From: a virus
IMG/VR virus record: IMGVR_UViG_3300021356_000061
Coordinates: 1 to 37,924 of that record
DNA length: 37,924 nt
Reading direction: 5' to 3' (one strand)
Positions 9,796 through 20,324 of this stretch are shown here, piece by piece. The translations under genes and the position numbers were made by a program. Within the stretch, counting starts at the first letter, position 1; each line of letters opens with the position of its first letter. The notes under the pieces are model-generated. The model made no database searches and had not been told where the DNA came from. It saw only the letters and a list, made by a program, of their open reading frames with translations.

Positions 9796-10155
9796 TTACC
9801 TTGTAACTGAAGGGGATACTCTGATTTTACCTTCCAAAACCCTCTCAATAATTGTATTATCATCAGAATCTAGATTAGAAATTTCCACGTCATAGACATA
9901 ACGTCCACGTGTACTCAAAGCATCTGTTTGGGTGTTGGTGAGAGAAATGACAACGACTCCATCCGTAGCAGGATCGGAAATTGCAGTCGTAAAGTCCACA
10001 ATGTCCGCACTGTCGGTGGAGTTATAATTTCGTTTCATTTTTGCGGCCGCAGAAAACCCAGTGAGGTTTTTCTTCGAACCGTCTTTTTCGACCAGTTCAA
10101 TCTCAATAGAGATATCTGCGCCTTGGTCTATGATGAGTTCTTCGTAAGTCGCCAT
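9796..10155 (-). CDS. Small structural protein, baseplate/fibre-associated (119 aa)
   Basis: The sequence reads as a single beta-sandwich-like domain: ELIIDQGADISIEIELVEKD, LTGFSAAAKMKRNYNS, TDGVVVISLTNTQTDAL and GRYVYDVEIS. This layout, with a 'linear in strain, LTGY, A-MK, G-VV-LT, GRYVYDVE' order, recurs in small phage proteins encoded beside fibres and resembles the N-terminal domain of BppU-type baseplate proteins. That similarity is from memory and is not a firm assignment. It is the first gene after the late promoter at 10194-10201 and leads the lower fibre block. Confidence 0.72.
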   Translation of the reverse strand: MATYEELIIDQGADISIEIELVEKDGSKKNLTGFSAAAKMKRNYNSTDSADIVDFTTAISDPATDGVVVISLTNTQTDALSTRGRYVYDVEISNLDSDDNTIIERVLEGKIRVSPSVTR

Positions 10156-10158
10156 TCC

Positions 10159-10215
10159 CAGTTCCAGTAAAGTGAAAACTTAATTCTTGTTTTTATTTAT
10201 ATAAACTGGAAACTG
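10159..10215. repeat. Imperfect inverted repeat flanking a late promoter
   Basis: CAGTTCCAGT (10159-10168) pairs with ACTGGAAACTG (10205-10215) with one bulged base. The late promoter TATAAATA (10194-10201) lies inside the loop and next to the right arm. The arrangement may be accidental in A/T-rich intergenic DNA. Confidence 0.35.
10194..10201 (-). promoter_or_regulatory. T4-type late promoter restarting the lower fibre block
   Basis: Exact TATAAATA on the minus strand, 38 bases upstream of the ATG of the 119-residue gene and just past the end of the accessory cassette. It would supply late transcription to the small proteins and the 663- and 454-residue fibres without relying on the cassette's own promoter. 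Confidence 0.75.
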
Positions 10216-10225
10216 AAAATGGGGG

Positions 10226-10933
10226 TTAGGGATCACTTATTTCAGCAATAACATCGTCTTGTAGGTTGAGGGCCATATCACTATGGTCAAAGATAAAGGA
10301 TACGGTGATACGTCTGCAGTCCGTACTTGCAGTGTGCCAACATATTTTCTCACGTTCGTCGTGACTACCAAAATACCCAGCCTTGAGTTGCCAGCCGGGT
10401 TTGTCTTGATGATGTACAATCTTACCTGTATTAGGGTCTAGGTGTTTGAACCACCCATCTCCGGTCTCTGACCAAGAGAAGATCAGATTATAGCCGGGAG
10501 CATTCCAGTTATTGTGCCAAGAAATGTATCCTTCGGGTGGGTAGAAAGCACTGAGTGCGTTGTTCCTGACACCAAGAAAGGTCATCATCTCTTCGTTCAA
10601 ACGATAGATGGTCTCCTGAACCTCCATTCGTTTCTCATGATCAGCATCCTTCTTAAAACATTGATACATGAATTCCGGTTGGTTGGGTTTGAAGTTGATC
10701 GCAACGAAGTGATCTGGAAATCCTTCATGATCACCTAGTCTACCACTTCTCAAATCGTTGAGGTACTGTTCGCCCGTCCATCTCTCACGTTGACCCGGCT
10801 CAGCGTCTTTCTGAGTTTCCTTATGCAATTCAGCAGTTTCCTTGAAACTTTCGGAATCTGCAAGTTTCACGTATTTATTGAGGATTTCCAACAGTTCTTT
10901 GCTGTTGATTTCAATGTCTTTAATAAGACTCAT
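10226..10933 (-). CDS. Possible 2OG-Fe(II) oxygenase-like protein (235 aa)
   Basis: The start is ATG at 10933; it overlaps the glycosyltransferase TGA (ATGA), which supports this start over longer readings that would run into that gene. Residues 1-120 are charged and helical. Residues 128-215 hold the conserved-looking core: FYPPEGYISWHNNWNAPGYN, FSWSETGDGWFKHLD, KPGWQLKAGYFG and ICWHTASTDCRRITVSFIF. H140, H200 and R208 fit the spacing of the 2OG oxygenase H-x-D...H...R pattern, but position 142 is Asn rather than Asp. I recall similar proteins in marine T4-like phages without a known function. If active, a hydroxylase is the best guess; it may also be a non-catalytic relative. Last gene of the cassette. 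Confidence 0.7.
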   Translation of the reverse strand: MSLIKDIEINSKELLEILNKYVKLADSESFKETAELHKETQKDAEPGQRERWTGEQYLNDLRSGRLGDHEGFPDHFVAINFKPNQPEFMYQCFKKDADHEKRMEVQETIYRLNEEMMTFLGVRNNALSAFYPPEGYISWHNNWNAPGYNLIFSWSETGDGWFKHLDPNTGKIVHHQDKPGWQLKAGYFGSHDEREKICWHTASTDCRRITVSFIFDHSDMALNLQDDVIAEISDP

Positions 10934-11658
10934 ATAATATAACCATCCTTGTCGAGACCACAAGAATAGTGACGCAGAACAACACCCTCTTCGGGATGAG
11001 GAGTAATTGCAGGATTCAATGCATTGTAATAGTTCCAACGAAGATCATTCTCAAAGACTCCCACCTTGAGGTCTTTGTACTTCTCCACTTTCTCTACCAG
11101 CCACCATAGAGTGAACTGATCCCATGATCGGAGACTCTCATTGTATCCATCGGGGAACCATTCACGATCCATCATCCGGCGGGTCAGTTCCCACCAGTCA
11201 TCCATGAAATCACGCACGATTGGTTTGGTCATGTCATACAAACAGACACCACCACAGAGAGTGAAGATTCCTTTACCTTCCGGAGTATCAAAACTGCGTT
11301 CCGCATAGACGTACTCACGATCATCTGTCAAGGGGGTGAACATGACATCATTGTCACCTAGTTCATCAAACACGTGTTCGATGTCCTCGTGTTCACACTC
11401 CATGTCCGCATCGATATAAAACGTTAGGTCATAGGGAGACTTTGCCATGCCCCACAGTTTCGCACGATAGTGATTGTTACACCAGATTACTTGATCGAAT
11501 AGATCACGATGAAGTTCTTCGAACATCCACTCTTCACAGACCAGAGTGATCTTTGCGTCTTCGTAGAAGTCGAGAATAGACTCTGCTAGGTTGATCGCAT
11601 ACCGATAGAAGTTGATCTTCTTCGATGCGACGATAACATAACCCTTACTCTTCTCCAC
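10930..11658 (-). CDS. GT-A fold glycosyltransferase, GT8-like
   Basis: Predicted nucleotide-sugar-dependent transferase. The N-terminal strand KGYVIVASKK is followed by a helix, ITLVCEEW, and then YRAKLWGMAKSPYDLTFYID with the metal-binding D-A-D motif. Downstream are LCGGVCLYD and SWDQFTLWWLVEK, positions that bind acceptor or sugar in GT-A enzymes. I chose GTG at 11658 because AGAGGA sits eight bases upstream. A GTG at 11676 would add six residues (MKRKLR) but has a weaker site. The 5' end overlaps the 158-residue gene and the 3' end overlaps the next gene by ATGA, so the three form one operon. The acceptor is unknown: virion protein, DNA base or host surface glycan are all possible. The neighbouring Thr/Tyr/Ser/Asn-rich repeat proteins make a virion target worth testing. 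Confidence 0.8.
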   Translation of the reverse strand: MEKSKGYVIVASKKINFYRYAINLAESILDFYEDAKITLVCEEWMFEELHRDLFDQVIWCNNHYRAKLWGMAKSPYDLTFYIDADMECEHEDIEHVFDELGDNDVMFTPLTDDREYVYAERSFDTPEGKGIFTLCGGVCLYDMTKPIVRDFMDDWWELTRRMMDREWFPDGYNESLRSWDQFTLWWLVEKVEKYKDLKVGVFENDLRWNYYNALNPAITPHPEEGVVLRHYSCGLDKDGYII

Positions 11659-12121
11659 TCTCAGCTTCCTCTTCACGCTTTTTCATTTCTTCCATGACGA
11701 TCATGATTGCAAAGAGGTCTACCTCAACCCTGTTCTTTGCACGTCTGAGTTTAGACTTGAGTTGACGATTCTTTGAGTTCTTGATATCATCGATCTCAAA
11801 CGCCTCAAGTTTATAATTGAAGAGTTGTTCTAGTTTACGTGCTTTCGCATGTTCCAATTCACGTTGTTTGTCCTCTTCAGCTTCACGCTTCTTTCGGGCA
11901 TTGCGTTCATTGGTGTTTTCTGTGATTAAATCTTCACCCAACGCCTCAACAACTTCGATGAAGTCTGGGTTCTCATTACCCTCATCATCAATAGTTCGCC
12001 GAAGTTTCATTACCTGACGGGTAACACGCCCAACGTCATCTTCGATCTCCAGAATACAGTTGAGCATTTCTTTCTCATCTGTTTCCCAGAACGCATTATC
12101 CATCCATTTTCTATGACTCAT
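11645..12121 (-). CDS. Charged coiled-coil protein of unknown function (158 aa)
   Basis: I do not recognise this gene. The N-terminus is Trp-containing (SHRKWMDNAFWETDEKEM). Residues about 70-105 are a run of Asn/Arg/Lys/Glu (NERNARKKREAEEDKQRELE) predicted to be a long helix or coiled coil, and the C-terminus is acidic (MKKREEEAESGEE). A strong AGGAG lies six bases upstream of the ATG. It is the first gene behind the sigma70-like promoter at 12165-12193 and overlaps the glycosyltransferase gene, so it probably belongs to the same pathway or is an early regulator or scaffold. No signal peptide or membrane segment is visible. Confidence 0.75.
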   Translation of the reverse strand: MSHRKWMDNAFWETDEKEMLNCILEIEDDVGRVTRQVMKLRRTIDDEGNENPDFIEVVEALGEDLITENTNERNARKKREAEEDKQRELEHAKARKLEQLFNYKLEAFEIDDIKNSKNRQLKSKLRRAKNRVEVDLFAIMIVMEEMKKREEEAESGEE

Positions 12122-12164: not shown

Positions 12165-12193
12165 ATGATACACTATTATGTATCGTTTGTCAA
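12165..12193 (-). promoter_or_regulatory. Sigma70-like promoter for the accessory cassette
   Basis: On the minus strand, TTGACA (12193-12188) is followed by exactly 17 bases and TATCAT (12170-12165), a 6/6 and 5/6 match to the housekeeping consensus. The -35 box contains the TGA stop of the 1115-residue gene. Transcription would start near 12158, giving a leader of about 37 bases with an AGGAG site before the ATG at 12121. This differs from the TATAAATA late promoters elsewhere in the window and suggests early or host-polymerase expression. Confidence 0.6.
12167..12184. promoter_or_regulatory. Possible operator dyad over the cassette promoter
   Basis: GATACA-N6-TGTATC is a perfect 6-bp-arm inverted repeat covering most of the spacer and the first bases of the -10 box. 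A dimeric repressor bound here would block RNA polymerase. In RNA of the upstream gene it could also form a weak hairpin just after the stop, but no U-tract follows, so the terminator reading is weaker. Confidence 0.45.
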
Positions 12194-15100
12194 GCGGCTC
12201 TCACGTAAAGAGTATAGGTTTGAATCGTACTTGAGGTTCCTGCAATCGTCGTACCGATGTAGTTACCCAAGAAACTTCTAGAGTAGTCACCCAAGAAACT
12301 TCTAGAGTAGTTACCCAAGAAGTCTCTTGTGTAGTCACCGATGTAATCTCCCGCAAAGTCTCTTGTACTTGTACGAGTGCTATTACGAGTATATGCAGAA
12401 TTTCTGGTGCGACTGAACGTGGAAGTTCTGACACGTGTTGAGGTTCTCAAAGAGGTTCTTGCGTACTCACCCAAGAAGGTGCGAGAGTAGTTACCGATGA
12501 AGTCACCAGCAAAATTAGTCACACGATCACGTGTGTACTCACCCAAGAAGTTGCGAGAGTAGTTTCCAAGGAAGTTACCTAAGTAATCTCCTACGAAGGT
12601 TCTTGCATAGTTGCCCGTAAAGTTTCTTGAGTAGTTACCTAAGAAATCCCCAGTGAATGTTGTCAGACTGTTTCGTGTGTACTCACCCACAAAGTTCCTT
12701 GAGTAGTTTCCTACGAAATCACGTGTACTAGTACGTGTAGAAGTTCTCGCATAGGTAGAAACTCTTCCACGGGTATAGGTAGAAGTCCTTGTACGAGTGT
12801 AGGCTGAGTAACGAGTTCTCAGAGAAGTCCTTGTGTATTCTCCCACGTAGTTACCCGCAAAGTCACCCACAAAGTTCCTTGCGTAGTTACCTGTGTAGTT
12901 ACCGGCAAACCCACGTGAATAGTTTCCTACGAAGTTGCCGAGATAGTTACCCGCAAATCCACGTGTATAGTTTCCGGTATAATTTCCTGCAAATCCACGT
13001 GCATAGTTTCCTACGAAGTTACCCGCAAAGTTAGTAACTCTGTCACGAGTATAAGCCGACCCACGAGTCCGTTGATAGTTGGTTGCACGTGTTCTCTGGT
13101 AGTTTCCTGTAGGCGTTGAGGTACGTGTTGATGTACGATTATAAACTCCGGTGCGGGTACTTGTTCTGGTAGACGTTCTCTGGTAGTTTCCTGTAGGAGT
13201 ACTTGAACGAGTACTGTTGCGGGTGTAACTGCCAGTTGCAGTTCTTGTTCTTGAATAGTTACCCACATAGTACAGAGTACGTGAGTAGTTACCCGTATAG
13301 TAAAGAGTTCTTGTATAGTTACCAGTGTAGTAAAGAGTTCTTGTATAGTTACCCGTGAAGTTACCTGTATACGATAAAGTACGTGAGTAGTTACCTACGT
13401 AGTACAGGTTACGGACATAGTTACCCGTGAAGTTCCCAGTGTAGTATACAGTTCTTGCATAGTTTTGATTTCGACTAAATCCACGGGCAAAGACATCGGG
13501 TTCATAAGCTGGCCCACCGGCATATAGTCTGTAGTATATTACAGTACGTGAATAGTTAACGTTAGCTGCCCGTGCTCTTGTCGATGTACGAGTGTAACCA
13601 CCACTCGTTGCAACTCTTGTGCGACTGTATGAAGCGGTAACATTACTTGAACGAGTACTGCTACGAGTATAGTCACCCGTTGCAGTTCTTGTGCGAGTGT
13701 AATCACCCGTTGCAGTACGAACACGAGTATAACTACCTGTCGCCGTTCTGGTTCTTGAATAGTTACCTACGTAATACAGGGTACGGGTATAGTTACCCGT
13801 GAAGTCCCCAGTGTAGTATAGGGTACGAGTATAGTCACCTACGAAATTGCCAGCATAATACAAAGTACGTGTGTAGTTACCCGTAAAGTCACCCGCATAG
13901 TACAAGGTACGAGTATAGTCACCTACGAAATTGCCGACATAATCGCCCAAGAAGTTCCTTGCGTAGTTTCCTACGAAATTACCCGCAAAGTTAGTAACCC
14001 TGTCACGTGTGTATGCAGAGTATCTTGTGCGTGTTGAGGTTCTTGTATATGCAGAGACACGTGTGCGACCATAATCGGTGACTCTATCTCTTGTATATGC
14101 AGAGTATCGTGTACGAGTACTCACTCTTGTATAAGTGGAGTTACGAGTGCGTGTCGATGTACGAGTTGACGTTCTCGCATAGTTCCCAAGATAATCACCG
14201 GCAAATCCACGTGCATAGTTTCCTACGAATCCACGAGAATAGTTACCCGTAAAGGTTCTGGCATAGTTGCCCACATAGTCTCCCGCATAAGAAGAGACCC
14301 TTGTTCTTGAATAGGCGGATACACGAGTTCTGCTATAGTTACCAATAAAATCACCCACATAGTCAGTGATTCGGGTTCTACTATATGCAGAAGTTCTTGT
14401 TCTATTATAAGTCGATACACGGTTGCGTGTAAAATTGGTTACTCTGTCACGTGTGTATGCAGAGACACGTGTGCGAGAGTAGTTACCGATGAAGTTTCCG
14501 GCAAAGTCGGTTACACGATTTCTGGTATACGTGGAGAGTCTTGTTCGGGTGTAGTTACCCACATAGTCCCCAACATAGTCTCCCGCATAGTCTCGTGCAT
14601 AGTTTCCGATGAATGAACGAGAGTAGTTACCGATGTAATCACCAAGGTAACTTGAAACTCTGGTACGTGTACTGTTGCGAGTGTAGTTGGAGTTTCGGGT
14701 TCTACTGTAGGCCGAAGAACGGTTTCTAGTATAAAGTGATGTACGAGTTCTAGTATATGCCGTCTCAGTCGTATCTTTCTTGGTGTCTGTCGCAGTACCT
14801 ACCGCAGTCCAAGTTCCCGAAGCCGTAGGTGCACCCTGAGAAGCAGAGCGCAACTGATAGGAACCAATCTCTCCCGCAGTTGCACGAAGATTACGGACAA
14901 AGTTACCGACTGTATTGGAAATGTCCGAATCGGTCATCTCACCAAGATCACCATCACTACGCAAACCAACCGATCTAACAGTTGTCGGAGCAGTCATGGT
15001 TTGTCTTTGATAGATGTTATAGTTTACTGTAGTCCCATCGGTCTGAGTATCACTAAACACGTTAGAGATATGCACAGCGTAGTCTCCGCCAGGCGAAGAT

Positions 15101-15537
15101 GACCCCAACTTGTATGAGCCCGGATAATCAGATGTTGCGATACGAGAGTTGATTCTTCTCGCAAGTACGTTCATGTCCGAATCAGGCATCTCATATAAAC
15201 TAGGAATACCTCCACCATCTGTAGCATACCCAACAGGACGGAGTGCACCCGCAAGTGCGCTCAACGTTCCTGCTTTTTGATACAGGGTAGTTGTCGTTGA
15301 TCCAGATGTAATAGAAGAGGCGGGATGAGTTCCTACCGCTTGATTATAGAACGTATCTACATAAGAACCAATCGTTGTATTTCCAGTTGATGTTAATGTG
15401 ATATCACCAACCTCATTAGACGTTCCGTAGAGATTATCTTTACCAACCACATAGGCCAAGTAGTTCTCTTCAGTAGAGGTCATCTCCTGAAGGTCACCAT
15501 TGGTTCCTTGTAGTTTTAATGGTATATTTGAAGCCAT
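12190..15537 (-). CDS. Giant Arg/Tyr tetrapeptide-like repeat virion protein (1115 aa)
   Basis: Three-part protein. Residues 1 to about 258 form an N-terminal domain with PLKLQ, STEENYLAYVVG, GTHPASSITSGSTTTTLYQ, a DSDMNVLARRIN helix and two IGSYxLxS/YKLGSSSPG-type segments. From about residue 260 to 1092 the chain consists of four-residue steps with Tyr or Phe in every fourth place: G-type steps (GNY, GDF, GEY) and R-type steps (YTRT, YSRN, YARG), with occasional shifts such as YTRTLYYTGN. The end, GTTIAGTSSTIQTYTLYVRAA, is a short C-terminal cap. No Lys, His, Cys, Trp or Met is visible in the repeat region. Both ends match the 773-residue neighbour, so the two are paralogues. A virion fibre or shaft role is inferred from context; biochemical function is unknown. 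Late-type CATAAATA lies 30 bases upstream of the ATG. Confidence 0.85.
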   Translation of the reverse strand: MASNIPLKLQGTNGDLQEMTSTEENYLAYVVGKDNLYGTSNEVGDITLTSTGNTTIGSYVDTFYNQAVGTHPASSITSGSTTTTLYQKAGTLSALAGALRPVGYATDGGGIPSLYEMPDSDMNVLARRINSRIATSDYPGSYKLGSSSPGGDYAVHISNVFSDTQTDGTTVNYNIYQRQTMTAPTTVRSVGLRSDGDLGEMTDSDISNTVGNFVRNLRATAGEIGSYQLRSASQGAPTASGTWTAVGTATDTKKDTTETAYTRTRTSLYTRNRSSAYSRTRNSNYTRNSTRTRVSSYLGDYIGNYSRSFIGNYARDYAGDYVGDYVGNYTRTRLSTYTRNRVTDFAGNFIGNYSRTRVSAYTRDRVTNFTRNRVSTYNRTRTSAYSRTRITDYVGDFIGNYSRTRVSAYSRTRVSSYAGDYVGNYARTFTGNYSRGFVGNYARGFAGDYLGNYARTSTRTSTRTRNSTYTRVSTRTRYSAYTRDRVTDYGRTRVSAYTRTSTRTRYSAYTRDRVTNFAGNFVGNYARNFLGDYVGNFVGDYTRTLYYAGDFTGNYTRTLYYAGNFVGDYTRTLYYTGDFTGNYTRTLYYVGNYSRTRTATGSYTRVRTATGDYTRTRTATGDYTRSSTRSSNVTASYSRTRVATSGGYTRTSTRARAANVNYSRTVIYYRLYAGGPAYEPDVFARGFSRNQNYARTVYYTGNFTGNYVRNLYYVGNYSRTLSYTGNFTGNYTRTLYYTGNYTRTLYYTGNYSRTLYYVGNYSRTRTATGSYTRNSTRSSTPTGNYQRTSTRTSTRTGVYNRTSTRTSTPTGNYQRTRATNYQRTRGSAYTRDRVTNFAGNFVGNYARGFAGNYTGNYTRGFAGNYLGNFVGNYSRGFAGNYTGNYARNFVGDFAGNYVGEYTRTSLRTRYSAYTRTRTSTYTRGRVSTYARTSTRTSTRDFVGNYSRNFVGEYTRNSLTTFTGDFLGNYSRNFTGNYARTFVGDYLGNFLGNYSRNFLGEYTRDRVTNFAGDFIGNYSRTFLGEYARTSLRTSTRVRTSTFSRTRNSAYTRNSTRTSTRDFAGDYIGDYTRDFLGNYSRSFLGDYSRSFLGNYIGTTIAGTSSTIQTYTLYVRAA
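12260..14758 (-). repeat. Coding repeat tract of the 1115-aa protein
   Basis: About 2.5 kb encoding aromatic-every-four repeats. Arg, Tyr, Gly and Thr codons vary widely between units, so most copies are old and kept at the protein level. One interruption near 13480-13530 encodes a non-repeat segment (YRLYAGGPAYEPDVFARG). Boundaries are approximate. Confidence 0.85.
13288..13347 (-). repeat. Recent 30-bp tandem duplication within the repeat tract
   Basis: Two adjacent 30-base units share the string taaagagttcttgtata (plus strand) and differ at only a few positions. They encode consecutive YTRTLYYTGN-type decamers. High DNA identity here, against diverged codons elsewhere, suggests recent slippage or duplication. 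Confidence 0.7.
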
Positions 15538-15566
15538 TTAATTCTCACAAATCGTCAGTATTTTTC

Positions 15567-15574
15567 TATTTATG
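15567..15574 (-). promoter_or_regulatory. T4-type late promoter variant for the 1115-aa protein
   Basis: CATAAATA followed by GAAAA, one base from the consensus, 30 bases upstream of the ATG at 15537. It overlaps the TAA stop of the upstream 773-residue gene. The extension GAA matches the start of the GAACT shared by three other late promoters. Confidence 0.65.
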
Positions 15575-17891
15575 CATATCGAACATACAGGGTATACGTT
15601 TCGATTGTTTCGGATGCCGAATCAATTGTTGTACCTACGTAGTTTCCGGTGAAACTTCTAGAATAGTTACCCGTAAAGGTTCTAGCATAGTTACCAATAA
15701 AGTCTCCCAGATATGTAGAAGTTCTGTCACGTACAGAGTCTCTTGTATAAGCTGAAACTCTATCACGGGTGTATGCAGAACTTCTGGCCAGAAGAGAATC
15801 TCTCGTTGAGTTACGAGTATAATTGCCTAAGAAGTTACGAGAATAGTTACCCGTAAAGTTTCTTGAGTAGTCCGTTATTCTGGTTCTGGTATAGGTAGAA
15901 CTTCTACCTCGTGTATATGCAGAAATACGTGTCCTTCCATAAGCAGAAGAACGGGTTCTTGTGGATGTACGAGTGTATGCCGATGTACGAGTTCTGGTGT
16001 ATGCACGTGCGTAGTTACCAATGAAGTCTCTTGAGTAGTTTCCAACGTAATCACCAACAAAATCTCTTGTACTCGTGCGTGTTGATGTACGAGTATAATC
16101 TGTTGATCTGGTTCTGGTATAGTCCACCGTTCTTATACGTGTGTAGTTACCCACAAAGGTTCTGGAGTAAGAACTATAACGTGTCCTTGTAGAGGTACGA
16201 GTACTGTCGATATCGAATGGACTCTGAAAGTTTCTGACGAAATTACCCACAAAGATTCTACTGTAGTCACCAAAGTAGGTTACGTTTGGTCGAGTACGAG
16301 TATAGTTACCTAAGAAGTTGCCTATGTAAACTCCACCCGTTGGCTGACCGTCCGGTAAAACATCGTCCCTATATCTTAAACTGGTTCGGGTATAGGGAAT
16401 AATACTAGTCCTCTGGCGAGTATAAGAGGATGATCTATCTCTTGTGAATGTGGACTGCCGAGGCGGCGTCTGTCTGGTGAAATTACCTAAGAAGTTACCC
16501 GCAAATCCACGTGCATAACTAGAAACCCGATCACGAGTATAGTTACCCGTGAAGTCAAGGGGATAGTTACCAACAAAGTCACCAATAAAGTTACCAGTGA
16601 AATTACCCGCATAATTAGAAGTGCGAGTGACCACATTGGTTCTGGTGTATGCACTAGTTCTGGTTCTGGTAAAGTTTCTTGAATAGTTACCCGTAAAGTT
16701 TCTTGAGTAGTTACCTAAGAAGTTCCCGGCGAAGTTACGAGCATAGTCACCCGCAAAGTTTCTACTATAATTTCCAGTAAAGGTTCTGGCATAGTTGCCT
16801 AAGAAGTCACCAGTATAAGCCGAAACTCTGGTTCGGGTATACGTAGAGGTTCTTGTGCGAGTATAGTTTCCGGTGAAATCCCCGATGAAGTTGCCAGAAA
16901 AATCTCTTGAATAATTTCCGGTAAAGTTTCGGGTATAGTTACCGATGAAGTTACCCACAAAAATTCTACTAAATGTACTAGTCGAATTTCGTGTGTATGT
17001 CGATGCTCTACCACGGGTGTAAGTTGAAACTCTAGTTCTTGTATATGCGGTTTCAACAGTCCTGTTTCGTGTGTCCGTTGCGACACCTACGGCTCTCCAT
17101 GATCCGGATAGAGGTGCACCCTGAGAACTACTTCTCAACTGATACGATCCAATATTTCCTGCGATAGCACGGCGAGTCTTTGCACGTTGACCCAAAGACA
17201 CTTTCATTTGTCGATTGGTCATTGGGTGAATACCCTGATAGGTTCCGGAACCACCACCCGATCTTTTTATACAAGAAAGAGTCGCTACACTACCATCACT
17301 GTCTGTGATGGATGAGGGAGCAGCTTGAACTTCTCTACGATAAATGTTATAGGATAATGTTGTGCCGTCAGTCTCCGTGTTGGTAAACGCATTGGAGATG
17401 TGAACGTTGTAGTCAACGCCAGGACTTGAAGACCCCAGTTTGAACTGACCAAGATAATCCGACAATGCGATACGACCATTCAGTCGATCCACTAGGACAT
17501 TCATGTCCGAATCAGACATCTCATGAATACCCTCAAGACCACTCGTGGGCCCGTCTGTAGGAGGATTGTAGTATGCAATGGGTTTGCGGAAATCAGAATC
17601 CGCTTCGGATGCAGTACCCGCAACCTGATACAGTGTGGTCTGAGTTGATCCAGAAGTAATCGCAGAGGCAGGGTGAGTCCCCACCGCCTGTTGTAAGAAG
17701 GTGTCTAGGTAAGAACCAATAGAAGTATTCCCTGTCGAAGTCAATGTGATGTTACCGACATCACCAGAGGTTTCGATAAGGTGTGTACCCACCAGATAGG
17801 ATAGGTAGTTTTCTTCTGTACTACTTAATCTCTTTAAATCGCCTTGATCCGGACTTTGGAGTTTAAGCGGTTTACTCTTCGCAATTGGCAT
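15570..17891 (-). CDS. Arg/Tyr tetrapeptide-like repeat virion protein, paralogue (773 aa)
   Basis: Paralogue of the 1115-residue protein. The N-terminal domain (residues 1 to about 282) has PLKLQ, STEENYLSYLVGTHL, GTHPASAITSGSTQTTLYQ, SDSDMNVLVDRLN and IGSYQLRSSSQGAP. The repeat region runs to about residue 750 with the same grammar: GNY/GDF steps and YTRTR/YSRNF steps. The cap GTTIDSASETIETYTLYVRYA matches the other protein. A non-repeat insertion near residues 490-530 carries RYRDDVLPDGQPTGGVYIG, possibly a loop or binding site. No Lys, His, Cys, Trp or Met appears in the repeats. AAGGA lies ahead of the ATG; no exact late promoter is directly upstream, so it may be co-transcribed with the 805-residue fibre. 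Function unknown. Confidence 0.85.
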   Translation of the reverse strand: MPIAKSKPLKLQSPDQGDLKRLSSTEENYLSYLVGTHLIETSGDVGNITLTSTGNTSIGSYLDTFLQQAVGTHPASAITSGSTQTTLYQVAGTASEADSDFRKPIAYYNPPTDGPTSGLEGIHEMSDSDMNVLVDRLNGRIALSDYLGQFKLGSSSPGVDYNVHISNAFTNTETDGTTLSYNIYRREVQAAPSSITDSDGSVATLSCIKRSGGGSGTYQGIHPMTNRQMKVSLGQRAKTRRAIAGNIGSYQLRSSSQGAPLSGSWRAVGVATDTRNRTVETAYTRTRVSTYTRGRASTYTRNSTSTFSRIFVGNFIGNYTRNFTGNYSRDFSGNFIGDFTGNYTRTRTSTYTRTRVSAYTGDFLGNYARTFTGNYSRNFAGDYARNFAGNFLGNYSRNFTGNYSRNFTRTRTSAYTRTNVVTRTSNYAGNFTGNFIGDFVGNYPLDFTGNYTRDRVSSYARGFAGNFLGNFTRQTPPRQSTFTRDRSSSYTRQRTSIIPYTRTSLRYRDDVLPDGQPTGGVYIGNFLGNYTRTRPNVTYFGDYSRIFVGNFVRNFQSPFDIDSTRTSTRTRYSSYSRTFVGNYTRIRTVDYTRTRSTDYTRTSTRTSTRDFVGDYVGNYSRDFIGNYARAYTRTRTSAYTRTSTRTRSSAYGRTRISAYTRGRSSTYTRTRITDYSRNFTGNYSRNFLGNYTRNSTRDSLLARSSAYTRDRVSAYTRDSVRDRTSTYLGDFIGNYARTFTGNYSRSFTGNYVGTTIDSASETIETYTLYVRYA
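15640..17048 (-). repeat. Coding repeat tract of the 773-aa protein
   Basis: About 1.4 kb of aromatic-every-four coding repeats, shorter than in the paralogue and interrupted near 16320-16390 by non-repeat sequence. Boundaries are approximate. Serine, arginine and threonine codons vary between units. Confidence 0.8.
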
Positions 17892-17906: not shown

Positions 17907-20324
17907 TTAAGTATTTAAGAGAGTGCCATTCTCGTCATAGATATCCACCACTCTACTCGCCATGTGATTCAAGGCGTTTACAATACTTGATGTTGCACCC
18001 GCACTGTCAAAGAATGCGGCAAGATTCGCAAGTGAACCAATTCTACTATCCAGTGTTCCTGCACTGTCTTGAAGGTCTTGTACGTCACCTGCAAGCACGT
18101 TGAGTGCAGCAACAACATTTGCCTTGTCTGAGGCAGATGCGAATGTGGTTCCATCCAGATCAGATAACGTACCAACAGAACTATCTAGGTCATTGATTGC
18201 AGTCTTGATCGGAGTAGACTTAACCCAACTATAAGGATTATCTACATTGTAAAGTAGAGTAGCACCAAGAAGGGTCTCGTTCGAATCCATCTCAGATTCT
18301 AGTTCAGCTACTCTTCCTTTGGTTGTCTGCAGATCGGCAACGTCAGAATCCAACTCAGTGTGGATTTCGTTGATCGCACCACCCAAGTGGGTTGATGTTG
18401 TGCCAAGTGTAGTACCCTCAGTGACCGTTCCGGTAATCGTGACGTTCGAAGAACTATCGATCCCGATTGCCTTGGTCGTATTACTATAGATGTCAAGAGT
18501 TCTTGCACCGGCAGGATTTCTAAATGATCCGTAAGTGACACCATTGTCTTTCAGGTATACGATACCACTACCAGCATCAAGGTTGATGTTGGAAGAAACG
18601 TCAAGGGTCAACACACCAGTTCTTGAAATGGTTGTGCCACCCATTATGACATTGCCACCTGTGGTTACTGTACCACCAGTCGTTACGTTCGCACCAGAGA
18701 ATGTCAGTGCAGTAGTCGTACCAGACTTTACGATCAGGTTACCGGATGTGTTGGTAAGCGAACCGTATGTTGTTCCACCGTCTTTGAGGAATACGTCTCC
18801 ACCGTCTGCATCAAGGACAATATCCCCAACCGCATCTACTGTGTAAGTAGAAGGAGCGTCAATCTCATAGGTTGCATCGTCATTAAGTGTGTGAGTTACC
18901 TCATCAGCACCGGCTCCGTTTTTGAATCGAATCTGATTACCATCTGCATCCAGTGTAATGTCACCAGATACATCAATTGCAAGATCACCTGTACGTGATA
19001 CCGTACCGTTTGTAGCAAATTGATAGTTTGTGGTTCCACCGTCTTTCAGGTATACATCACCACCGTCTGCATCTAATGTGATGTCTCCAGTTACGTCAAC
19101 AGTGAAGTTGCCAGTTCTAGAGATTGTACCGTTGGTGTTGAATCTGTAGTCTTCTGTTCCACCGTCCTGAATGATGACGTTACCACCATCTGCATCCAAG
19201 ACAACATCTCCACCCGCATCTACTTTAAAGTTGCGTACAGTGTTTACTGTTGCTGAGTCAGCGTTTAATGTGTAGTCACTGTCTACTGTGACTGTCTGGT
19301 TACCATTGATATTTTCAATGTGGTTTCCACCAACTGAGTCGGTGAGGTTACCAGAGTGTTGAACTGTTGTTGTCGCACCAAGAGTGTAAGTTACTCTTGT
19401 TGTACCCGCATCTTTAAATGTGATGTTATCACCGGCTGCGTCGAGTACTATATCACCAGAAATGTCTAGTGTCAAGTTTCCTGTGCGAGAAACTGTACCG
19501 TCTGTGGCAAAGTTATAGTCGGTAGTACCACCGTCTTTAAATATAACGTTACCACCATCTGCGTCGAGAATGATATCCCCGCCTGCGTCCACGGTGTAAG
19601 TAGAAGGTGCATCGATTTCATATGTGGCATCGTCGTTCAGGTTATGAGTTACTTCGTCTCCACCCGCACCGTTCTTGAATCTGATTTGGTTACCGTCTGC
19701 GTCGAGAGTGATGTCACCCCCCGCATCGATCTCAAAGTTACCACCAGCCGAGTCTGCAGTTCTGATCAAACCCGCAATGGTAATGTCGAGAGTAGTTGTT
19801 GTTCCTAAAGTAAGTTGTGCGTACTGATCGGAGTCCTTGAGGAAGGTAATGTCACCCCCATCCAAGTTGACTTCTAGGTCACCCGCACCATCAAACCGGA
19901 AGTTACCTCCCGCATTGATCTTGAGTGTACTGGCATCAAAGACAGCTTCGATCTCGTTGATCGCATCTCTGATTGTATTCGCTTCAACATTAAGAGTATC
20001 GGAGTCACCACCGATGTATGCGTCGATGGCATTAATTGCACCTGTCACACCACTGTCACGTACACGATTAATCGCATACGATAGGTAGTTTAGATCATTC
20101 TTGACATCACCGCCGCCAGGCCCGTGAAGGTCAGAGTCGAGTTCGTTTAATGCACTAACAACATCCGATGAGTCCGATCTCTGTGCAACATCCGTATTAC
20201 CTTCAGTGAAGGCTCTGGATGTTGTAGTCAGAAGATCAGGGTCACCAACGTTGTTAGAGATGGTGTTAAGATTGTCTCTGAGAATCTTAAACGAATCTGT
20301 TAAAGCTGTAATTGGACGTGCCAT
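17907..20324 (-). CDS. Beta-repeat fibre protein with GGDIxLDADGG repeats (805 aa)
   Basis: Probable fibre protein. Residues 1-110 are helical and Asp/Asn-rich (ITALTDSFKILRDNLNTISN, VVSALNELDSDL, INAIDAYIGGDSDTL). Residues about 125-560 carry many copies of a beta module, GGDITLDADGNQIRFKNGAG or GGDVxLKDGGTTNYQFATNG, alternating with TVSRTGNLTLDISGDI. Two long copies containing EVTHxLNDDATYEIDAPST are nearly identical. The C-terminal third returns to helical character (ELESEMDSNETLLGATL, VVAALNVLAGDVQDLQD). It ends VVDIYDENGTLLNT, resembling the YNSAGVLQN end of the 1458-residue fibre. It follows the 75-residue gene with no gap. A late promoter sits about 150 bases upstream, inside that small gene. 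Confidence 0.78.
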   Translation of the reverse strand: MARPITALTDSFKILRDNLNTISNNVGDPDLLTTTSRAFTEGNTDVAQRSDSSDVVSALNELDSDLHGPGGGDVKNDLNYLSYAINRVRDSGVTGAINAIDAYIGGDSDTLNVEANTIRDAINEIEAVFDASTLKINAGGNFRFDGAGDLEVNLDGGDITFLKDSDQYAQLTLGTTTTLDITIAGLIRTADSAGGNFEIDAGGDITLDADGNQIRFKNGAGGDEVTHNLNDDATYEIDAPSTYTVDAGGDIILDADGGNVIFKDGGTTDYNFATDGTVSRTGNLTLDISGDIVLDAAGDNITFKDAGTTRVTYTLGATTTVQHSGNLTDSVGGNHIENINGNQTVTVDSDYTLNADSATVNTVRNFKVDAGGDVVLDADGGNVIIQDGGTEDYRFNTNGTISRTGNFTVDVTGDITLDADGGDVYLKDGGTTNYQFATNGTVSRTGDLAIDVSGDITLDADGNQIRFKNGAGADEVTHTLNDDATYEIDAPSTYTVDAVGDIVLDADGGDVFLKDGGTTYGSLTNTSGNLIVKSGTTTALTFSGANVTTGGTVTTGGNVIMGGTTISRTGVLTLDVSSNINLDAGSGIVYLKDNGVTYGSFRNPAGARTLDIYSNTTKAIGIDSSSNVTITGTVTEGTTLGTTSTHLGGAINEIHTELDSDVADLQTTKGRVAELESEMDSNETLLGATLLYNVDNPYSWVKSTPIKTAINDLDSSVGTLSDLDGTTFASASDKANVVAALNVLAGDVQDLQDSAGTLDSRIGSLANLAAFFDSAGATSSIVNALNHMASRVVDIYDENGTLLNT

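Follow-up and report, generated by a model that had tools for sequence, protein, structure and literature searches.

The closest described counterpart of the two proteins reported here is the needle of T4 gp37, whose collar domain D10 is assembled from residues 811-881 and 1010-1026, with the C-terminus returning to it (PMC6957217). Between these segments the chain forms two arms of equal length (882-931 and 960-1009) separated by a receptor-binding tip (932-959) that lies mid-chain, and the stem is six-stranded and antiparallel (PMC6957217). A contact reported between G921 and F970 joins different subunits (PMC6957217; PMC7291167); the two residues satisfy i+j=1891, which equals 882+1009, and hence occupy mirror positions. 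Two further phage proteins show part of the pattern. The C-terminal triple-stranded beta-helix of T4 gp5 consists of an octapeptide repeat (PMC3004832). Our proteins have in common with it that they belong to a phage tail, a period of 4n residues and residues pointing alternately in and out, but the gp5 chain winds one way without a self-complementary second half, whereas the tracts described below carry a mirror register. A structural protein of cyanophage S-RIM2 (YP_007675557.1), likewise the product of a structural gene of a T4-like phage, contains four-residue Gly-Asn steps (VTGNVTGN); these steps are however aliphatic and not aromatic, the termini differ and the alignment extends over 150 residues only.

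The window, a virus record of 37,924 bases, covers a T4-like baseplate and tail-fibre cluster with nearly all of the large genes on the minus strand; fibre genes occupy 1.5-26 kb, and genes for the baseplate wedge and hub follow at 26-37 kb. Among the latter are two genes whose products can be divided as follows.

12190..15537, minus strand: large putative hairpin-fibre protein, 1115 aa (ORF)
14758..15537, minus strand: base (N-terminal) domain of the large protein, aa 1-260; conserved across an alignment of 19 homologs; the corresponding domain of the small protein is predicted to fold (pLDDT mostly 80-96)
13639..14757, minus strand: proposed outgoing arm, aa 261-633; antiparallel to aa 721-1093 at i+j=1354
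13378..13638, minus strand: proposed tip, aa 634-720 (mid-chain aa 677); irregular, mean pair score -0.21
12259..13377, minus strand: proposed returning arm, aa 721-1093; mirror partner of aa 261-633
12193..12258, minus strand: C-terminal strand, aa 1094-1115 (GTTI...TYTLYVRAA, earlier called a cap); its equivalent in the small protein is predicted
15570..17891, minus strand: small putative hairpin-fibre protein, 773 aa (ORF)
17046..17891, minus strand: base domain of the small protein, aa 1-282; AlphaFold2 pLDDT mostly 80-96, last strand 264-284
16503..17045, minus strand: proposed outgoing arm, aa 283-463; pairs with aa 571-751 at i+j=1034
16182..16502, minus strand: proposed tip, aa 464-570 (mid-chain aa 517); mean pair score about 0 (0.01)
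15639..16181, minus strand: proposed returning arm, aa 571-751; mirror partner of aa 283-463
15573..15638, minus strand: C-terminal strand, aa 752-773; AlphaFold2 strand 750-772, fits i+j=1034

The first-pass annotation had described two paralogs sharing an N-terminal domain and a C-terminal segment, joined by a strongly basic tract of about 830 and 470 residues with Tyr or Phe in every fourth place, and all of this is borne out. The periodic tracts span aa 261-1093 (833 aa) in the large and aa 283-751 (469 aa) in the small protein and carry net charges of +87 and +48, respectively, Arg accounting for about 15% of their residues. Tyr/Phe are enriched 2.4-4.1-fold at lags of 4, 8, 12 and so on up to 24 while odd lags are generally depleted, and Tyr/Phe spacings are divisible by 4 in 112 of 153 cases (large) and 73 of 82 (small). 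Arg and Gly follow Tyr/Phe at a distance of two residues. The idea of two alternating step types has to be revised: there are more than two types (YxRx, FxGN, RxSx and STRT), the period breaks mid-tract, and 10-residue units (TRTLYYTGNY / ATGDYTRTRT) appear near the middle.

Throughout the tracts the residues keep the in/out alternation of a beta-strand. One of the two faces so defined in the large protein holds 120 of its 125 Arg, 94 of its 111 Tyr and every one of its 43 Phe, the opposite face being composed mostly of Thr, Asn, Val, Ala and Asp. Substitutions respect this division, since in comparisons of the large protein with its L037 and L040 homologs only 3-8% of sites changed at word positions 1 and 3 against 33-43% at positions 2 and 4. 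The dN/dS ratio is about 0.5 in the tract and about 0.1-0.2 in the N-domain, and identical four-residue words are encoded by many different codons; codon diversity together with the tract ratio implies that selection acts on the protein and not on a DNA repeat. Both ORFs thus look translated and under selection.

The arrangement of the words along the chain follows a rule of its own. Over 66 members of the family, phase purity falls from 0.98 at the ends of the tract to 0.50 at its exact centre and rises again to 0.97, whatever the tract length, and a phase break fixed at the centre suggests a chain that runs out and back. We therefore paired position w+i with position e-i+delta, where w is the conserved Trp closing the base domain and e the Tyr of the C-terminal TYTLY, and used as controls registers shifted by 4 and 8 residues, in which phase and composition are kept. 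Whichever of four classes of distance from the base is taken (18-70 to 300-900 residues), the pairs depart sharply from the controls at delta 3 and show flanks at 1, 5 and 7, the phase-controlled divergence at delta 3 being 0.33, 0.20, 0.215 and 0.185 over a background of about 0.04-0.06. Enriched over the controls are Y-Y (1290 observed vs 727), R-F (649 vs 245), F-R (459 vs 187), R-G (993 vs 592) and S-R (522 vs 238), while R-R pairs are depleted (159 vs 707), as are Gly-Gly, Phe-Phe and Ser-Gly. Mirror pairs are complementary rather than similar. Translated into words, RxSx lies opposite FxR (73%), YxRx opposite YxG or YxS, FxGN opposite RxR or SxR, and STRT opposite Y/FxG.

With homologs left out, delta 3 was chosen exactly by 46 of the 66 proteins among 121 registers and delta 2 by 5 more, and about 15, mostly short or Arg-poor, miss the register. 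Partner-swapped controls gave a modest contrast only, because relatives share blocks, which is why we relied on phase-matched register controls and on leave-cluster-out tests. The count of simultaneous substitutions at mirror positions is suggestive, not sharp. Proteins of a second architecture (L011, L024, L027), with Y/R steps and different ends, have no hairpin register, so the test does not fire on composition alone.

The same register is found in the two window proteins individually. A log-odds pair table trained without the close relatives of the window singles out one register in every segment of both proteins; expressed as delta, the log-odds of the large protein are positive at 3 only, and in the small protein delta 3 stands far above a few other slightly positive registers. 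Among all antidiagonals the best register is i+j=1354 in the large protein (score 6.09, next 1.14, among 1255) and i+j=1034 in the small one (5.02 against 0.62, among 527), parallel pairings reaching at most 0.53. None of 2000 shuffles, in which 8-residue words of the second arm were rearranged, came close (z=10.1 for the large and 7.5 for the small protein). The trained table is not needed to see the effect in the large protein, where Arg-Arg accounts for 0 of 407 pairs at the register and for a mean of 4% elsewhere, and the fraction of R-{G,F,S} pairs is 0.268 compared to a mean of 0.109 and a maximum of 0.159 at other registers. Pairing reaches almost to mid-chain, to about aa 633/721 (large) and 463/571 (small). 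The distal part of the large outgoing arm (aa 570-633) scores weakly (0.09) because 10-residue units are used there, and these units also lie opposite each other. We show at the level of sequence that the two halves of the tract stand in a fixed, registered antiparallel relation.

Changes in length obey the same mirror. Equal indels at mirror positions amount to 240 residues per arm between L009 and L008, to 24 and 12 per arm between the large protein and L040, and to 28, 14 and 4 between L103 and L107. A mirror partner of the same type and length, within 16 residues of the mirror position, was found for 185 of 1688 indels in the first arm, with 14.6 expected from shifted mirrors. The excess is large, although the 241 protein pairs compared overlap, so that the 185 matches cannot be counted as independent events. 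The mirror-paired indels include ones of 240, 348 and 520 residues per arm, and equal, mirror-placed differences of up to hundreds of residues can be followed in L009 versus L008, L015 versus L083 and others. An exception is an inserted domain, 222-230 residues long, that interrupts the returning arm in L010, L020 and L052 and is unmirrored; beyond it pairing resumes in a register shifted by the length of the domain. The equal mirror insertions pose a new evolutionary question, namely how two distant sites of one gene come to change length together.

Structure prediction bears on the ends of the proposed hairpin. AlphaFold2 was run on monomers with a large alignment of 18 homologs and with 9 short-shaft homologs, and in both models only the base domain and the C-terminal strand are confident. 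In the small protein the base domain has a pLDDT mostly of 80-96 and the C-terminal strand 750-772 mostly of 76-96, while almost the entire shaft stays below 40 in either model, so that neither of them displays a hairpin; such low confidence may occur with an obligate oligomer. The limits of strands 264-284 and 750-772 agree with i+j=1034, a register arrived at independently from covariation, and the predicted C-terminal strand would return to the base domain and complete it. Foldseek searches of both models against the PDB gave nothing with E below 0.3, and the first model had no significant match in BFVD. PDB sequence searches with both proteins and with a base-domain profile gave no match either, in line with the first-pass remark that no standard fold is known to follow such a repeat, and neither Foldseek (E below 0.3, PDB) nor profiles detected a collar fold of the gp12/gp10/gp11 type in the base domain. 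Pfam, PHROGs and NCBIfam contain no family for the two fibre proteins beyond a marginal phrog_15773 (function unknown), the Pfam scan having returned none at E<=0.1.

These observations are best accommodated if each protein is a virion fibre formed by one very long antiparallel beta hairpin inserted in the base domain, a reading that we consider quite probable. The chain would exit the base domain, run out as a beta strand, turn at a mid-chain tip presenting a host-binding surface, and zip back onto the outgoing arm so as to bring the C-terminus to the base again. A number of chains, three being most likely given other phage fibres, would bundle into a rod in which the four-residue words serve as a register code that stops the long arms from slipping. 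Adjacent genes may assist assembly, and in a tail fibre the tip or inserted domains would contact the host. A fibre shaft had been proposed at first pass, and a virion shaft encoded in the tail-fibre gene cluster is supported; a single shaft ending in a C-terminal cap is not, since pairing of the first half with the second in mirror register would put the "cap" at the base and the tip mid-chain. The Tyr/Arg face of the large protein carries about 120 uncompensated Arg, which speaks for its being exposed at least in part.

Two equal antiparallel arms and a mid-chain tip are thus common to the gp37 needle and our proteins, in which they are indicated by the register, the indels and the central irregularity, and an elongated insert in a base domain with a returning C-terminus may be present here as well. 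The differences are in scale and chemistry. The arms measure 181-373 residues here and about 1000 in a relative, compared to 50 in gp37, and they are made of four-residue Tyr/Arg/Gly/Phe words in place of the HxH iron sites of the needle; 66 proteins with 53,862 residues of tract contain only 3 HxH and 90 His. The topology is that of the gp37 needle and was already known; no homology to gp37 was detected, the base domain having no sequence or fold match in the PDB. No earlier account was found of such long arms, of a four-residue complementarity code or of lockstep indels. From the T4 needle, about 150 Å long (PMC3004832), we took about 3 Å per residue, by which the large fibre would measure roughly 110 nm and the small one roughly 55 nm. 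As the mirror contact G921-F970 in T4 is made between subunits, pairing in our proteins may occur within or between the chains of a trimer.

We give even chances to a more general reading, that the four-residue words constitute a strand-pairing code by which the sequence of one arm goes far to determine that of its partner, much as in a hairpin of nucleic acid, allowing almost any fibre length and growth by equal insertions in both arms. If true, evolution would have produced a protein zipper of programmable length for which no described fibre offers a parallel. Phage receptor-binding fibres are mostly regarded as shafts with a C-terminal tip; if the hairpin is correct, the C-terminal end would be the wrong place to look when annotating these proteins or reasoning about host range. 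Readable pairing rules make the structure of an uncharacterised family of marine phage proteins predictable from sequence, are themselves open to direct test, and could inform the design of long self-zipping beta fibres.

An antiparallel domain-swapped dimer, in which residue i pairs with residue S-i of a second chain lying head to tail, so that the filament is bipolar and both its ends carry a base domain, would produce the same i+j register, and the register and indel data cannot separate it from the hairpin. We nevertheless hold the dimer to be unlikely, as the central 85-105 residues are not self-complementary (-0.21 and 0.01) and most family members have an irregular mid-tract, which fits a turn or tip and not a two-fold centre; AlphaFold moreover places the C-terminal strand confidently in a monomer. 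Mirror complementarity, mirror-paired indels and an irregularity fixed at mid-chain would not be expected from a conventional one-way shaft with a distal C-terminal cap, be it a gp5-like triple beta-helix or another beta-solenoid. All three are seen, and neither protein matches the gp5 trimerisation family (Gp5_trimer_C) or any other Pfam family, so that this reading appears quite improbable even though the 4- and 8-residue periods resemble those of octapeptide beta-helices and phage shafts are commonly of that kind.

A largely disordered sticky Arg/Tyr layer without a defined fold, acting through cation-pi contacts and polyanion binding, would agree with the strongly basic, aromatic composition and with the very low pLDDT of the tracts. 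It is hardly probable at all in view of the strict parity over hundreds of residues, the fixed register, alternate positions that are 10-fold less substituted and relatives with almost no Arg. Conservation is position- and register-specific and not of composition only, as it would be in a disordered low-complexity protein of Arg/Tyr type. For the same reasons (selection tied to position and register, and Arg at ~0-3% in some relatives) the sticky Arg-Tyr layer suggested at first pass is not supported as the essential role of these proteins, which may have a secondary role in polyanion binding.

Related tracts had been suspected in other marine T4-like phages, and they do exist. Among sequenced phages, tblastn revealed a single one that encodes a version, of 3347 aa, namely C48C1 (Kyanoviridae); S-RIM2 gave a partial, distant match. 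The small protein has matches at 26 loci of IMG/VR, and an N-domain profile matches 138 contig stretches there, 78 loci being retained. Genome contigs of 84,980 prokaryote species, scanned by pattern, gave no relative, a plasmid collection gave low-complexity-like matches only, and literature searches that covered tail fibres with tetrapeptide repeats, phage C48C1, repeats in cyanophages and fibres folding back on themselves turned up no description of these proteins. In complete members the base domain is followed by a tract, between 125 and about 3059 residues long (125 to about 2000 without other domains), and by the ending [YF]T[LM]Yx[RK]; such members occur as two members in tandem at many loci and as one long member at others. 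In some relatives Arg makes up about 0-3% of the sequence after the base domain while the aromatic steps are largely kept; going by these, Arg is dispensable in the family. The tip is somewhat more variable, if modestly so, with an identity of 0.59 vs about 0.70.

The family and its surroundings show further variety. The inserted domain of ~225 aa occurs in the shaft at L010:12611-17857, L020:1299-7604 and L001:14995-25038, and also in C48C1 and in virion structural proteins of Vibrio phages. Repeats of a hexapeptide (NYAGPT) and a decapeptide (VNYLGEASGA) take the place of part of the shaft at L092:3148-4488 and L093:9992-11302, and small extra ORFs with Tyr/Arg steps lie upstream of the long fibre gene at L015:6785-8040 and similarly in L083 and L091. 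The second protein type, with Tyr/Arg four-residue steps and different ends, is encoded at L011:5003-9433, L024:395-4978 and L027:9359-13456.

On the downstream side of the fibre genes lie several smaller genes that could take part in their assembly or modification.

11645..12121, minus strand: 158-aa gene adjoining the fibre genes; present at 75/106 loci, 68% identity in C48C1
10930..11676, minus strand: 248-aa protein with a DxD-like motif (YIDADME); present at 75/106 loci, YIDADME conserved
9796..10155, minus strand: homolog of the L-shaped tail fibre assembly protein, 119 aa; phrog_1084 and phrog_3304, 62/106 loci

The 158-aa product is a candidate dedicated assembly factor. The 248-aa protein matches Glycos_transf_2 in Pfam below threshold (E=0.005) and found no match in a PDB search; the weak Pfam match hints at a possible glycosyltransferase, which could glycosylate the Thr/Ser-rich fibre. 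Within 9796-12121 (minus strand), genes of 158, 248, 270 and 119 aa recur beside the fibre genes at 62-75 of 106 loci, C48C1 included, three of them with 68% identity in that phage, and a dedicated assembly or modification module is possible.

Upstream of the pair, at 17907-20324 (minus strand), is a gene for a fibre-like 805-aa protein with repeats such as DGGNVIFKDGGTT, which matches a PHROG for baseplate assembly over part of its length and the gp5 trimer family marginally. The S-RIM2 structural protein, encoded at L002:5396-11134, has four-residue steps of the form VTGNVTGNLTGN at its end.
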